This document shows, one piece after another, positions 45,960 through 54,361 of a stretch of DNA of 64,000 nt; position 1 is the stretch's first letter; each line of letters starts with the position of its first letter. Location: assembly GCA_013373425.1 (NCBI GenBank), contig JABXHW010000003.1, forward strand, positions 1 through 64,000, written 5' to 3'. The stretch is from Flavobacteriia bacterium (GTDB taxonomy: Bacteria > Bacteroidota > Bacteroidia > Flavobacteriales > Schleiferiaceae). The position numbers and the translations under genes are program-made. The notes beneath the pieces are model-generated. The model made no database searches. It was given only the letters and a program-made list of their open reading frames with translations, and was not told where the DNA came from.

Positions 45960-47192
45960 ATGCAAGAACAAACTTCAATCATAATAGGAGGTGGCGCAGC
46001 GGGCTTTTTCGCTGCAATTGCTTGTGCTGAAGCGAACCCGCTGAGCAAAGTGATCATTCTTGAAAAAACATCAACCGTTCTTGGGAAGGTAAAGGTCTCA
46101 GGTGGTGGTAGATGTAACGTGACAAACGGCTGTTTCAATCCGGAAGACCTCGTTGAATTCTATCCTAGAGGAAGTCGAGAGCTTCTCGGCCCGTTTCACC
46201 GGTTCGCTACTGGAGATACCATGGAGTGGTTTAGCGATCGAGGAGTTGAGCTGAAGATTGAGTCGGATAATCGCGTGTTTCCAGAAACCGACGATTCGCA
46301 GACTATTATTGACTGTCTTGTTGATTTTGCTGAAAGAGCTGGCGTTGACATCCGCACCAACAGCGGGGTTGAGTCTATCGAGAAAGATAATGATCAATGG
46401 ATTGTCAAGCTTGAATCGAAAAATGAACTTCGTGCTCACAAGGTATTGGTTGCCACTGGCGGAAGTAAGAAAATGTGGGACAGTTTGAAGAAGATCGGTC
46501 ATCGAATTATCGAGCCCGTTCCTTCACTTTTTACATTCAATATAAAAGACCCGAGAATCAATGGCCTTGCAGGAGTTAGCGCGCCGAATGTGTTGCTCAC
46601 ACTTCCTGCATTCGACCTATCCGCTGAAGGCCCTCTTCTCGTTACACACTGGGGCTTGAGTGGTCCAGCGGTACTCCGACTCAGCGCCTGGGGAGCTCGT
46701 GAGCTGCACGACACCTCTTATCGTTTCATCCTTCATGTCAATTTCGTTCCTCAATTCGATGAGGAGACCTTGATTGAGATTTTGAACGATTTCCGCAAAG
46801 ACCCAGACCATCAGCGTAAGCGCATCCAGAGCAATACGTTGTTCAACTTGCCATTGCGATTGTGGAAGAATATCTGTGAATCGGCAAAGATTCCCGAACG
46901 CGCCACTTGGTCCGACATTTCTAAACCCCTTTTGAAGAAGCTCGTTTCCCACCTGAATCATGGCGAGTTTGTGGTTTCGGGCAAAAGCACCTTCAAAGAA
47001 GAATTCGTCACTGCTGGAGGAGTAGATTTAAGTCAGGTTGATTTCCGCACATTCTCTAGCAAGCTTCACGACAATCTGTTCTTCGCAGGGGAGGTTCTCG
47101 ACATTGATGCAATCACTGGAGGCTTCAATTTTCAGGCGGCATGGACCGGTGGATGGATTGCGGGGCATGCGCTGGCAGGGGAAACCGTTTAG
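45960..47192 (+). CDS. HI0933/YhiN (BaiN-like) family flavoprotein
   Basis: FAD/NAD(P)-dependent oxidoreductase of 410 aa in the HI0933 family. It shows IIIGGGAAGFFAAIACAEANP, VIILEKTSTVLGKVKVSGGGRCNVTN (family signature), VLVATGG, the insertion domain around FNIKDPRINGLAGVSAPNV, and the C-terminal GGVDLSQVDFRTFSSK and FAGEVLDIDAITGGFNFQAAWTGGWIAG. Biochemical function is unsettled; BaiN, a gut relative, acts in bile-acid chemistry, but no such role is implied here. It precedes the mutagenesis cassette, with a hairpin and regulatory region between. Confidence 0.93.
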   Translation: MQEQTSIIIGGGAAGFFAAIACAEANPLSKVIILEKTSTVLGKVKVSGGGRCNVTNGCFNPEDLVEFYPRGSRELLGPFHRFATGDTMEWFSDRGVELKIESDNRVFPETDDSQTIIDCLVDFAERAGVDIRTNSGVESIEKDNDQWIVKLESKNELRAHKVLVATGGSKKMWDSLKKIGHRIIEPVPSLFTFNIKDPRINGLAGVSAPNVLLTLPAFDLSAEGPLLVTHWGLSGPAVLRLSAWGARELHDTSYRFILHVNFVPQFDEETLIEILNDFRKDPDHQRKRIQSNTLFNLPLRLWKNICESAKIPERATWSDISKPLLKKLVSHLNHGEFVVSGKSTFKEEFVTAGGVDLSQVDFRTFSSKLHDNLFFAGEVLDIDAITGGFNFQAAWTGGWIAGHALAGETV

Positions 47193-47194
47193 CA

Positions 47195-47222
47195 TTTAAT
47201 CGTTTGACATTCAGCGATTAAA
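47195..47222. other. Hairpin-forming inverted repeat TTTAATCG/CGATTAAA
   Basis: Perfect 8-base arms with a 12-base loop start two bases after the 47192 stop. There is no T tract, so this is at best a weak terminator; it could also be an operator. TTTAGCATT at 47188-47196 overlaps its left arm and recurs in the downstream promoter. Confidence 0.55.
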
Positions 47223-47253
47223 CCTTAGAGGTGAAATTTCTCTTTTTCGTTTT

Positions 47254-47287
47254 TGCTAAAAATTATATCATTCTTATTATTTTAGCA
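47254..47287 (+). promoter_or_regulatory. Candidate operator/promoter of the XRE-S24 gene (TGCTAAAA-N18-TTTTAGCA)
   Basis: Perfect 8-base arms separated by 18 bases, 21-54 bases upstream of the ATG at 47308. The left arm joins TTTTTG (47250-47255, a -33-like element) and the right arm lies in TATTTTAG (47278-47285), a one-mismatch -7 box. A dimeric repressor bound to both arms would block the promoter. A third copy of TTTAGCA occurs at 47188. Confidence 0.6.
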
Positions 47288-47307
47288 TTCGTAAAAGAGA
47301 AGAACTC

Positions 47308-48103: not shown

Positions 48104-49378
48104 ATGAAGAGGAGCGGAGAGCCAGCAGCAGCTTCGTATAAGCGATTTTCACTGAGAGCGTCAGGGGAGCGGTCTATTGCACACATGGATCTTGATACAT
48201 TCTTTGTGTCGGTTGAAAGATTGATGGACAGTCGGCTCAACGACAAGCCTATACTCATCGGCGGTACGAGTAACCGAGGTGTAGTTGCATCCTGTAGTTA
48301 TGAAGCGAGAAAGTTCGGCGTCCACTCAGCAATGCCGATGAAGATGGCGCTGGAAATGTGTCCTGAAGCCGTTGTAATCCGCGGTAATTCAGCGAACTAT
48401 ACAAAATACTCTAATCTGGTAACAGATGTTATCAAGGATACAGTGCCCGCGTATGAGAAACCCTCTATCGATGAGTTCTACCTGGATTTAACCGGTATGG
48501 ACCGCTTCTTTGGGTGTTATCAGTTCGCATCTGAGCTCCGACAGAAAATAATGAGCGAGACTGGGCTACCGATATCCTTCGGTTTATCGGGGAATAAGAC
48601 GGTTTCAAAGGTGGCTACTGGGGAAGCGAAGCCGAACAATCAAATGCGAATTGACTTTGGGCAAGAGCGCCCGTTCCTAGCGCCATTGTCTGTGAGAAAG
48701 ATTCCGATGGTGGGTGAGAAAACTTATCAAACCCTTCGCCATCTGGGGGTTAAGCGGATTCACACCGTTCAAGATATGCCGGTGGAAATGATGGAAAGAG
48801 TGCTCGGAAAACACGGTCGAAGCATATGGGAGAAGGCTAGGGGAGTGGATAGAACTCCTATAATCCCTTACTCCGAGCGGAAGTCAATTTCAACGGAGCG
48901 AACTTTCGATAGAGACACAATTGATGTCGTGAAGCTGGAGAGTATCCTAGTGGCCATGACGGAAAACCTGGCTTTTCAATTGCGCCGAGGAGTGAAGCTG
49001 ACAGCCTGTATCACTGTGAAGGTGCGGTATTCCGACTTCAACACACACACGCTTCAAGCGCGAATCCCTTATACAGCCTCAGACCACGTCTTGATACCAA
49101 AGGCGAAGGAGTTGTTTAGAAAGCTATACGACAGAAGGCTTCTGGTGCGACTTATCGGTGTGCGTATGAGTCACCTGGTAAGCGGAGGGCATCAGATGAA
49201 CTTGTTCGAGGATAATGTGGAAATCCAACAGCTGTATCAAGCGATGGATAAAATGAGGGATAAGTACGGAGATCGATCAGTTATTCGAGCTGCGGGGATA
49301 CAAGCCAGAACGATTGGTCGAATGACAAACCCGTTCAACGGCGACCCTCCGAATCTGCTCGCTAACAGGAGGGTTTAG
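48104..49378 (+). CDS. dinB: Y-family DNA polymerase (DinB/Pol IV-like)
   Basis: Translesion polymerase of 424 aa. Active-site residues are Asp29 in MDLDTFF (with a Phe steric-gate region, FFVSVE) and Asp123-Glu124 in PSIDEFYLDL; thumb and little-finger domains follow. Residues 364-368, QMNLF, form a good sliding-clamp motif. An N-terminal extension of about 25 residues and a C-terminal tail of about 55 residues make it longer than E. coli Pol IV (351 aa). The start is one base past the S24 regulator stop. It is followed by a 100-base gap with its own inverted repeats, then SRAP. Confidence 0.95.
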   Translation: MKRSGEPAAASYKRFSLRASGERSIAHMDLDTFFVSVERLMDSRLNDKPILIGGTSNRGVVASCSYEARKFGVHSAMPMKMALEMCPEAVVIRGNSANYTKYSNLVTDVIKDTVPAYEKPSIDEFYLDLTGMDRFFGCYQFASELRQKIMSETGLPISFGLSGNKTVSKVATGEAKPNNQMRIDFGQERPFLAPLSVRKIPMVGEKTYQTLRHLGVKRIHTVQDMPVEMMERVLGKHGRSIWEKARGVDRTPIIPYSERKSISTERTFDRDTIDVVKLESILVAMTENLAFQLRRGVKLTACITVKVRYSDFNTHTLQARIPYTASDHVLIPKAKELFRKLYDRRLLVRLIGVRMSHLVSGGHQMNLFEDNVEIQQLYQAMDKMRDKYGDRSVIRAAGIQARTIGRMTNPFNGDPPNLLANRRV

Positions 49379-49411
49379 GCGCGATAGATTCGATTTATGA
49401 TAGGTTTTCAA

Positions 49412-49449
49412 TTCACTATAAATCAATTTATTAAGATTCTTGTAGTGAA
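49412..49449 (+). promoter_or_regulatory. Inverted repeats in the dinB-SRAP gap, possible internal promoter/operator
   Basis: TTCACTA (49412-49418) and TAGTGAA (49443-49449) are perfect 7-base arms separated by 24 bases; inside is ATAAATCAATTTAT (49418-49431, palindromic arms with a two-base spacer). The gap is AT-rich and precedes SRAP by 29 bases, consistent with a second regulated promoter for SRAP-dnaE-radical SAM. The half-site differs from TTTAGCA upstream of the regulator gene. Confidence 0.4.
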
Positions 49450-49478
49450 GTGATAAATGAATATAATCTCACAAGCTT

Positions 49479-50306
49479 ATGTGTGGTAGATATGTGACAG
49501 TTAGTAAGGTTAAGGCGGTAGAAAAGCGCTTCAATGCGGAGGTTTCTCAGCCTGAATTATGGAGAGTGAATACCAACGTAGGACCAGGCACAAAAGCGCC
49601 AGTGGTTACCAACGACGCGCCTAATGAGATTCAACATTTTCAATTTGGGTTCACTCCTCACTGGGCCAAGAAACCTATGTATGTCTTCAACGCCAGAGCG
49701 GAGGGCGATCACAATAAAGACAACAATCCACAATACACTGGCGCCAAAGGCATCATACAGAAGCCCATGTTTCGGAACTCTATTCGTGATCGACGATGCC
49801 TGGTGATTGCTGATGCATTCATAGAAGGTCCTGAAAAAGAGAAGCTCAGCAAGCCGTATGTTGTCTACCTCAGAGAGCGCAGACCCTTTGCTTTTGCAGG
49901 GGTTTGGGATGAATGGGTGAATACCGACACCGGAGAGATGCTTCGTTCGTTTGCGATTCTCACAACTGTATCCAATCCACTTCTACAGAAGATTGGTCAC
50001 CATAGATCGCCAGTCATTCTATCCCCAGACCAAGAGACGGATTGGATTTCCTCAAGTCTACCTCTGAACGATGTAACCAGCATGCTGGAGCCTTATGATG
50101 CGAAGGCAATGAATGCTTACCCTATAGATCCCGCCATCAAAAACCCCAGAGCTCAGGGAGTTGAACTCCTCAAGCCAGTGGGGGAGCGGATTTACAAGGA
50201 GTACGATTATGAAATCTATGAAGAGCTGCGACTAGAAGGCATGGGGGAAACTCGCGCCAGACAACGCGGCCGCGAGAATCAAGACGGTCAACAATCTCTT
50301 TTCTAG
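49479..50306 (+). CDS. SOS response-associated peptidase (SRAP/HMCES/YedK family)
   Basis: Shields abasic sites in single-stranded DNA by forming a stable covalent bond through its N-terminal cysteine. The 275 aa protein begins MCGRY with catalytic Cys2 (exposed after Met removal), Asn71 in VFNARAE, Glu116 in ADAFIEG and a His in HHRSPVIL (His174), the full active set. It is about 50 residues longer than YedK (222 aa) and ends in a charged tail with QQSLF (271-275), a sliding-clamp-like motif. It is followed by dnaE after 15 bases. In animals the equivalent HMCES uses its PCNA-binding box at forks, so a clamp motif here makes sense. Confidence 0.93.
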   Translation: MCGRYVTVSKVKAVEKRFNAEVSQPELWRVNTNVGPGTKAPVVTNDAPNEIQHFQFGFTPHWAKKPMYVFNARAEGDHNKDNNPQYTGAKGIIQKPMFRNSIRDRRCLVIADAFIEGPEKEKLSKPYVVYLRERRPFAFAGVWDEWVNTDTGEMLRSFAILTTVSNPLLQKIGHHRSPVILSPDQETDWISSSLPLNDVTSMLEPYDAKAMNAYPIDPAIKNPRAQGVELLKPVGERIYKEYDYEIYEELRLEGMGETRARQRGRENQDGQQSLF

Positions 50307-53300: not shown

Positions 53301-53324
53301 TTTGATGAAAGGGCTGCGTCATGA
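50322..53324 (+). CDS. dnaE2: DnaE2-like C-family DNA polymerase, alpha subunit
   Basis: Error-prone-type DNA polymerase III alpha subunit of 1000 aa, shorter than replicative DnaE (about 1160) and without its C-terminal tau-binding domain. Domains: PHP (1-230, with the metal site degenerate, SHTYYSF replacing the HxH motif), polymerase palm with PDFDIDF (Asp353, Asp355) and KFDIL (Asp485), fingers/HhH (about 640-820), then an OB fold (about 900-985). LEDIF (859-863) stands where DnaE1 has its internal clamp motif QADMF. The start is TTG: upstream there is no ATG, and LLNSHTYYSFKYGT matches the PHP N-terminus. Overlaps the radical SAM gene by four bases. Confidence 0.92.
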   Translation: MLLNSHTYYSFKYGTMSPDELLQAAVEMGHDRIAVTDVNSTSASLQVLRLAKKYNIHVVVGVDFRVGVEQQFVALAVNNEGFQRINELLTAILHGRVTTPSEAPDWNDSEVAVIYPLRNAPKRKLRPGEYIGVAPHEMFRTTWRQSSWEENRFVALCTATFRHKRDFNTHRLLRAIDQNTLLSKLASKQVAAPSDRITDTASLRDAYADRPAWLIRSANILERCNVYFGFGNEQQSQNQQTYTGSRDKDFALLVKLCKDGLSYRYPALSKDVEERLKKELEIIREKNFVSYFLINWDIVHHARRKGYFYVGRGSGANSVVAYLLRITDVDPMELDLYFERFINLYRVNPPDFDIDFSWKDRDDMTDYIFKRFPNTSLLATYNTFQFRAVVRELGKVFGLPKHEIDHLAQGRLSRQRTDDQVVQAVLKYSQYIQGFPSHLSIHAGGILITEKPIEAYTATSMPPKGFPTTQFDMVVAEDVGIYKFDILSQRGLSKIQDTIAVIQKNQPERAANVDIHDIPRFKEDESVKDLLRNGKAIGCFYVESPAMRMLLKKLKVDNYLGLVAASSIIRPGVAKSGMMREYILRYRYPERRKQANPILMSIMPETFGVMVYQEDVIRVAHHYAGLTLGEADVLRRGMSGKYRSREEFQKVKERFFTNCKSKGYPDSESAEVWRQIESFAGYAFAKGHSASYAVESYQSLFLKAHFPLEYMVSVINNFGGFYRTEFYVHEARMAGAEICPPCINNGDHHTTIKGKRIYLGFMHLRSLEDKAAIKILEERDRGGVFLDFDDFIDRVPIGIEQVSILIRIDAFRFTGKTKRELLWEAHFKLEKKPPKNPTPSMFRPESKSYELPPLHQTKLEDIFDQIELLGFPLSNPFHLLKEIPDSDRLASHLPNHEGQRIRIYGYLVTLKDTKTNDGKRMHFGTFLDRTGHVFDTVHFPPVVAKYPFRGRGVYVMEGKVVEEFGFHSIEVEMCHKADLIPDPRFSEEEVESKFDERAAS

Positions 53325-54361
53325 GAAGAGGAACAGAAGAACAACCGACCAACCGCTTTGATTCACAAAGTTATACGAGAATAGAGGAGTGGATGCTTCC
53401 AGACGAGGAGGAGAACACAAAAACGCAACTCATTGCAACGCATCCAAAATCGATTGTGAACCCTGTAAGTAGCCCTGATGTACCGTCTAATTGGTCGATG
53501 AACCCCTACCAAGGTTGCGAACACGGTTGCCCATACTGCTATGCGAGAAACAGTCATGAATACTGGGGATATAGCGCAGGAGTCGACTTTGAAACGAAGA
53601 TCCTTTATAAAGCAAATGCAGCCGAGCTATTGAGGAAAAAGCTCAATTCACCATCGTGGAAAGGCGAACCTATAATGTTATCAGGCAATACCGATTGTTA
53701 CCAACCCATAGAAAGGAAGTTGATGATCACTCGGGAATTACTGAAAGTAGCATTGGAATACCGTCAGCCTATTGGAGTCATCACGAAGAACGCCCTTGTA
53801 TTACGTGATTTAGATTTGTTAACCGAAATGGCAAAGCACAATCTAATTCATGTAGCCATCTCAATCACATCTTTAGATGCAGCCCTTCAACGCAATTTGG
53901 AACCTAGAGCAAGTGCACCATACAAGCGATTGAATACAATAAAGACACTATCTAGTGCTGGCATACCCACGCTAGCTATGCTTGCACCCATGATTCCCGG
54001 ATTGAATAGTCACGAGCTGCTTCCTTTGATGAAAGCTGTATCCGAAGCTGGGGCGCTTAAGTCGAGATATATAACCGTCCGACTCAATGGGCATCTGCGA
54101 GATTTGTTTGAAACTTGGCTAGATGCGCATTACCCCGATAAGAAATCAAAAGTTATGAACTCCATAAAGCACACCCACAGCGGGAGAGTGAATGCTTTCA
54201 GATATGGAATCCGTATGTCGGGCACAGGAAGAGAGGCCGAAACACTGCGCCAAGCATATGCTGTGGGAAACAAGAAATACTTCAAGAATAAAAAAATGCC
54301 CGCTATGTCTAGCGAGCATTTTGTAAAACTGAATGAACGTCAGTTTGATTTATTCCGTTAA
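53321..54361 (+). CDS. PA0069/Rv2578c-family radical SAM protein (SPL-related)
   Basis: Radical S-adenosylmethionine enzyme of 346 aa in the family related to spore photoproduct lyase. The cluster motif is CEHGCPYC (Cys66, Cys70, Cys73; CxxxCxxC) with NPYQG before it; AMLAPMIPGLN and SGNTDCYQPIE are family features. The SPL relationship suggests repair of a DNA lesion, not proven. The C-terminal RQFDLFR carries QFDLF (341-345), a sliding-clamp-like pentapeptide. In mycobacteria Rv2578c is damage-induced. The ATGA overlap with dnaE2 shows coupled translation. The stop overlaps the convergent lipoprotein gene by four bases. Confidence 0.9.
   Translation: MRRGTEEQPTNRFDSQSYTRIEEWMLPDEEENTKTQLIATHPKSIVNPVSSPDVPSNWSMNPYQGCEHGCPYCYARNSHEYWGYSAGVDFETKILYKANAAELLRKKLNSPSWKGEPIMLSGNTDCYQPIERKLMITRELLKVALEYRQPIGVITKNALVLRDLDLLTEMAKHNLIHVAISITSLDAALQRNLEPRASAPYKRLNTIKTLSSAGIPTLAMLAPMIPGLNSHELLPLMKAVSEAGALKSRYITVRLNGHLRDLFETWLDAHYPDKKSKVMNSIKHTHSGRVNAFRYGIRMSGTGREAETLRQAYAVGNKKYFKNKKMPAMSSEHFVKLNERQFDLFR

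Follow-up and report, generated by a model that had tools for sequence, protein, structure and literature searches.

A group of non-canonical LexA proteins was described in Bacteroidetes in 2021 (Sanchez-Osuna et al., 2021; PMC8565304). According to the main text of that study, direct binding to the palindrome CTAA-N5-TTAG and induction by mitomycin C were shown for the protein of Pontibacter actiniarum (WP_025606010.1), substitutions in either dyad abolished operator binding by this protein, and the characterized relatives require a rigid N5 spacer. The same text describes control of several operons, including recA, as common in the CTAA-N5-TTAG group, with regulons that vary in size, and several promoters with multiple instances of the motif; we did not find a 17-bp tandem register stated there. 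A second group of these proteins, represented in that account by S. agarivorans, has the operator GGA-N5-TCC.

Here we compare with these systems an XRE-S24 repressor and the cassette that follows it in a window of 64,000 nucleotides (contig JABXHW010000003.1, positions 1 to 64,000) from a member of the genus Phaeocystidibacter. As far as the main text describes the P. actiniarum system, both combine an XRE HTH_3 domain with an S24 peptidase and Ala-Gly/Ser/Lys residues, and both have a 13-bp N5 palindrome in the regulator's own promoter and translesion polymerase genes under control. The window differs in its left half-site (CTTA), in two palindromes set in a 17-bp register over the -7 box, in a cassette that directly follows the regulator, and in recA, which has no site in Phaeocystidibacter. 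The GGA-N5-TCC group, as described there, is alike in domain order and function and different in operator. With the canonical LexA of E. coli and B. subtilis the window shares a self-cleaving, autoregulated S24 repressor of error-prone polymerases, but its operator is not the SOS box, and a Pfam search of the repressor for a LexA winged-helix DNA-binding domain found none, returning HTH_3 (PF01381) only. The lambda and P22 repressors also resemble it, in their type of helix-turn-helix and in having several operators per promoter, but the window's repressor belongs to a repair cassette of the chromosome rather than to a phage.

The repressor and its cassette

We first consider the protein (Table 1). 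Its predicted structure (mean pLDDT 76) has a CI/P22 c2-like N-terminal part, residues 1–66 matching P22 c2-type HTH domains (Z 11.9), and a second part, residues 97–230, that matches the LexA catalytic domain (Z 12–13). After the S24 domain the model places an extra C-terminal helix (239–263), with moderate to low confidence (pLDDT 45–68). The repressor is 44–46% identical over nearly its full length to proteins of several Pontibacter species, a comparison that lay outside the P. actiniarum protein itself, and in a tree it falls in the same region as the Pontibacter-type regulators, with a GGA-type homologue far outside. Of the 88 genomes of the family, 82 had an orthologue; the promoter set comprised 70. 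The predicted cleavage site Ala108-Gly109 and the dyad Ser148/Lys187 are invariant in 70/70 orthologues, which confirms the intact cleavage residues noted in the preliminary description of this locus. One record titled Flavobacteriaceae (L194) carries a Pedobacter-like regulator and promoter.

The DinB gene starts 2 bases past the repressor stop and the DnaE and rSAM genes overlap by 4 bases, so the five genes appear to form a single transcription unit, broken by one gap of 100 bases. Both further Phaeocystidibacter genomes have the complete set in identical order (Phaeocystidibacter luteus LMG 25704 is among the members compared), and in other genera parts of it lie beside the regulator. We looked for an operator in the gap between DinB and SRAP and found none (best score 4.4). 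The gap (49379–49478) does hold a repeat, TTCACTA...TAGTGAA, which could mark an internal promoter and contains no CTAA operator.

Table 1. Features of the regulator promoter and cassette, in window coordinates
Feature	Position	Strand	Basis or remark
Upstream HI0933-like gene	45960–47192		Stop codon overlapped by TTTAGCATT
Possible -33 element, TTTG	47252–47255	+	22 bases before the -7 box; weak
Inverted repeat TGCTAAAA-N18-TTTTAGCA	47254–47287	+	Outer half-sites of predicted O1 and O2; conserved in the genus only
O1, decayed upstream operator (predicted), CTAA-AAATT-ATAT	47256–47268	+	Exactly 17 bp upstream of O2
O2, main operator (predicted), CTTA-TTATT-TTAG, 13 bp, CTAA-N5-TTAG type	47273–47285	+	Matrix score; conservation in at least 12 genera
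Putative -7 box TATTTTAG, consensus TAnnTTTG	47278–47285	+	Sequence and consensus; merged with right half of O2
XRE (HTH_3) and S24 peptidase repressor, 264 aa	47308–48102	+	Pfam HTH_3 2e-13 (2.4e-13), Peptidase_S24 1e-8
Y-family (DinB/Pol IV-like) polymerase	48104–49378	+	Pfam IMS 2e-44; second cassette gene
SRAP (YedK/HMCES-type) protein	49479–50306	+	Pfam SRAP 9e-48
DnaE-like polymerase III alpha subunit, 1000 aa	50322–53324	+	Pfam/NCBIfam polC, error-prone DnaE
PA0069-family radical SAM protein	53321–54361	+	NCBIfam rSAM_PA0069 2e-137; last cassette gene

From the inverted repeat to a 13-bp palindrome

The preliminary description had drawn attention to an inverted repeat with an 18-base spacer upstream of the repressor gene and proposed it as the operator. 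The repeat is there: its arms, TGCTAAAA (47254–47261) and TTTTAGCA (47280–47287), match exactly and are conserved in the genus, and a pattern search of the 3.09-Mb genome, the window included, found the arrangement at this place only. Against shuffled sequence the bare repeat is unimpressive, since 61/400 dinucleotide shuffles of the AT-rich 120-bp stretch contained one or more perfect 8-bp repeats with gaps of 4–30 bases, and 20/400 matched the two 8-bp repeats observed; the case for the repeat therefore rests on comparison across genomes. That 15% of region shuffles yield a comparable repeat would fit an accidental origin in AT-rich intergenic DNA, but conservation in the genus and family excludes chance for the palindrome that we call O2 and leaves it improbable for the left arm, and we give this explanation hardly any credence.

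A third copy of the half-site had been proposed at 47188. This candidate, TTTAGCATT (47188–47196), was dropped: it overlaps the stop codon of the upstream gene, relatives do not have it there, and repeated 9-mers of this kind are present in 69/400 shuffles, which is chance level. Directly after the same stop lies a perfect repeat, TTTAATCG-N12-CGATTAAA (47195–47222), which folds as a short hairpin and is not kept in the genus alignment.

Alignment of the three Phaeocystidibacter members showed that TTTGCTAAAAAT..T.TCATTCTTATTATTTTAGCA is retained in 3/3, with diverged flanks. Both arms at N18 spacing were found in Phaeocystidibacter only (three species, 3 genomes); in other genera what stays constant is the N5 palindrome. 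Among orthologous promoters, then, the right arm proved conserved across the family and the exact N18 repeat was confined to the genus. The element conserved in orthologous regulator promoters is a 13-bp palindrome, CTWA-N5-TTAG, extended rightward by CA, which precedes the regulator in most family genomes. We scored the window with a matrix built from ten other genera, leaving its own genus out. The palindrome O2, CTTATTATTTTAG, scored 15.6, compared with a mean maximum of 2.6 in shuffles, and 0/500 shuffles equalled it. The same palindrome, mostly in single copy, lies upstream of Pontibacter, Pedobacter and Mucilaginibacter orthologues; those of Pontibacter and Pedobacter have 42–47% protein identity.

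O2 agrees with the CTAA-N5-TTAG type at 7/8 core positions and in its N5 spacer, with CTTA instead of CTAA as its left half. Perfect CTAA-N5-TTAG copies occur in orthologous promoters, several family genera have CTTA, CTTT or CTTC at the left half, and the CTTA of O2, which lies inside the N18 spacer, is kept in all three Phaeocystidibacter species. Because dyad substitutions abolished binding by the Pontibacter protein, according to the main text of PMC8565304, tolerance of CTTA must be a trait of the window's lineage.

Next, we asked how the palindrome relates to the protein. Among 123 distinct regulators, the recognition helix G[AST]YE[ED]x[RK] was accompanied by the site in 95 of 110 promoters, with none in the remaining 14% or so, and other helices were accompanied by it in 0/13. 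The regulators L066–L071 (genera g6, g15 and g17) have the altered helices SAYEIGS, NSYENKL and NSYENQL and promoters without CTAA-N5-TTAG. We looked for a shared replacement palindrome in promoters of regulators with other recognition helices, and no common one was obvious. In the promoters of 20 regulators from other parts of the order the palindrome was found in 0/20. One of these, L257 (G165), a 28%-identical XRE-S24 homologue, shows GGA-N5-TCC three times, at -137, -119 and -96, and no CTAA site, and at the level of sequence serves as an independent negative control. Its sites are of the published second operator type, likewise in multiple copies.

Tandem register and promoter

When scores were averaged by genus, a second palindrome was strongly preferred only at a distance of 17 bp from the best one, on either side, the mean second-site score being -0.9 at offset -17 versus -15.5 (sd 3.4) over all offsets. 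Both palindromes score at least 8 in at least 8 genera (g2, g3, g4, g7, g9, g11, g16 and g19), and tandem palindromes also occur in a few MAGs from beyond the family set. In the window the corresponding position is occupied by O1, which has only its left half-site intact, inside TGCTAAAA, and a full score below threshold. This left half, CTAA, is kept in 3/3 genus members and the right half is lost (ATAT, TTGT, GTAT); genus g18 shows the opposite decay, with the right half TTAG retained. Since the left arm lies exactly in the 17-bp register, the N18 repeat is, on this comparison, the pair of outer half-sites of a predicted tandem double operator, O1 and O2. The earlier proposal therefore stands in that the repeat marks a predicted operator overlapping the regulator's own -7 box, and falls in that this is not a single N18 dyad for one dimer: what the family shares is the 13-bp palindrome, and the arms belong to two palindromes 17 bp apart.

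A dimer or tetramer contacting only the outer half-sites, 26 bp apart, would still make the N18 repeat one operator. Both arms do keep identical spacing in the three genus members as several bases between them vary (47262–47268), and the two species other than that of the window have longer arms, of 10 bp (TTTGCTAAAA/TTTTAGCAAA). However, half-sites 26 bp apart (about 2.5 turns) face opposite sides of the helix, outside the genus it is the 13-bp palindrome and not the outer pair that is constant, and the CTTA within the spacer is conserved; the rigid N5 spacer of the characterized relatives, as given in the main text of PMC8565304, also argues against this arrangement, which we regard as very improbable.

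The promoter itself could be placed by its -7 box, for which the consensus TAnnTTTG at -12 to -5 has been described (PMC9723704). TATTTTAG departs from it by one change, and TAWWTTAG is conserved together with the operator across the family, which places O2 on the -7 box. With the last base of the box set at -5, transcription is predicted to start near 47290, with a leader of 18 bases. The preliminary description had let the arms coincide with this box and with a -33-like TTTTTG (47250–47255). The first coincidence holds, but the second is weak: the TTTG candidate is kept within the genus and absent from most other genera.

The left arm might nevertheless be kept only as a TTTG -33 box, not as a half-site, with O2 as the single operator. 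TTTG does lie within the genus-conserved block and O1 does score under threshold. Yet the conserved block extends through CTAAAAAT, past any -33 box, the left arm sits exactly at the 17-bp register of other genera, and the 22 bases from TTTG to the -7 box are long for promoters of this type, so we consider this account unlikely.

Finally, the repeat could act as RNA. A hairpin at 47238–47301 in read-through transcripts from upstream would occlude the repressor's start region, and mRNA from the repressor's own promoter would be without the left arm. The window's copy folds better than shuffles (z -4.5 for 115 nt, -3.4 for 78 nt), as does that of the genus member G031 (z -6.3). When the core was kept and only the flanks were shuffled, however, folds as good were obtained in 54/400 cases for the window and 124/400 for P. 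luteus, and G031 alone was special (1/400). Flanks swapped between species folded about equally in most combinations, and most other genera are without such a fold. The flank-shuffle and swap control thus ruled out the hairpin as the main reading, except in G031, and we judge a role in RNA improbable. The extended repeat around the operator of G031 (L004, 1425–1500) is unusually strong, unlike that of the other two species.

Regulon and proposed circuit

We probed the organism's own genome by patterns, not by the full matrix, so that weaker targets were possibly missed, and the only strong site found was the promoter of the regulator-DinB-SRAP-DnaE-rSAM cassette. Exact CTAA-N5-TTAG (CTAANNNNNTTAG) occurs at 14 places in this genome versus 149 for the backward-read control, making it about ten-fold rarer; reading of the ORFs around the 14 places showed no recognized repair gene adjoining. 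Besides the cassette site there were 22 one-mismatch matches, and the 16 that were read were mostly intragenic, none of them beside a recognized repair gene. A search of the recA promoters of the three genus members gave no convincing operator; the window organism's own recA has TATATTTG in its promoter. In genus g18, CTAATATTTTTAG or CTAATATTATTAG closely follows TACATTTG in 8/8 recA promoters read. These promoters (L223, L229, L231, L232 and L234–L237) have the CTAATATTWTTAGCA palindrome directly 3' of the recA -7 box. With a recA site in the sibling genus g18 and none in Phaeocystidibacter, the circuit differs between genera. In Phaeocystidibacter the regulon may be confined to the cassette, since recA and the other sites examined in the window's genome lack a convincing operator.

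Altogether, we put at roughly 85% the probability that a non-canonical LexA of the XRE-S24, CTAA-N5-TTAG group uses this element as its auto-operator. Weighing against it are the CTTA left half of O2, the sub-threshold score of O1, the missing operators at recA and the other sites examined in the genome, and the helix-matched promoters that have no site. A repressor dimer would bind O2, and as O2 is merged with the -7 box, the bound dimer would block RNA polymerase, holding the cassette low and limiting the repressor's own level. O1, with its single half-site, would probably provide weak secondary binding beside the -33 region. Upon DNA damage, RecA filaments would stimulate the repressor to cut itself at Ala108-Gly109 by means of Ser148/Lys187, the dimers would be lost, and the translesion cassette would be switched on.

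A dimeric repressor that shuts its own promoter had been proposed before, and an autoregulatory XRE-type S24 repressor with a predicted operator over its own -7 box agrees with this, although not by way of one N18 dyad. The LexA-like circuit suggested at the same time is supported by comparison, through operator conservation, cleavage residues, register, the placement of O2 on the promoter and the covariation of recognition helix and operator. It had been thought unusual for the phylum, and is no longer unexpected there, because non-canonical LexA proteins with exactly such an operator type were shown in Bacteroidetes in 2021, according to the main text of PMC8565304.

We tentatively suggest a wider model, which is possible at best: in this family, two 13-bp palindromes set in the 17-bp register may give the SOS repressor four half-sites, one about every 8.5 bp, across the -7 and -33 boxes, with cooperative binding of two dimers or use of alternative half-site pairs. 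Lineages might then tune the switch by decay of different half-sites, the inner right of O1 in Phaeocystidibacter and the outer left in g18, and by gain or loss of recA.

As judged from its sequence, this mutagenic DNA-repair switch of a marine member of the Bacteroidota adds a further example to the non-canonical LexA proteins described in 2021. The analysis assigns the cassette to an SOS family that has experimental support and corrects which bases form the predicted operator. It adds a testable sequence rule, a 17-bp tandem register over the -7 box that covaries with the recognition helix, and the differing control of recA between sibling genera offers a tractable case of loss or gain in the SOS network of Bacteroidota.
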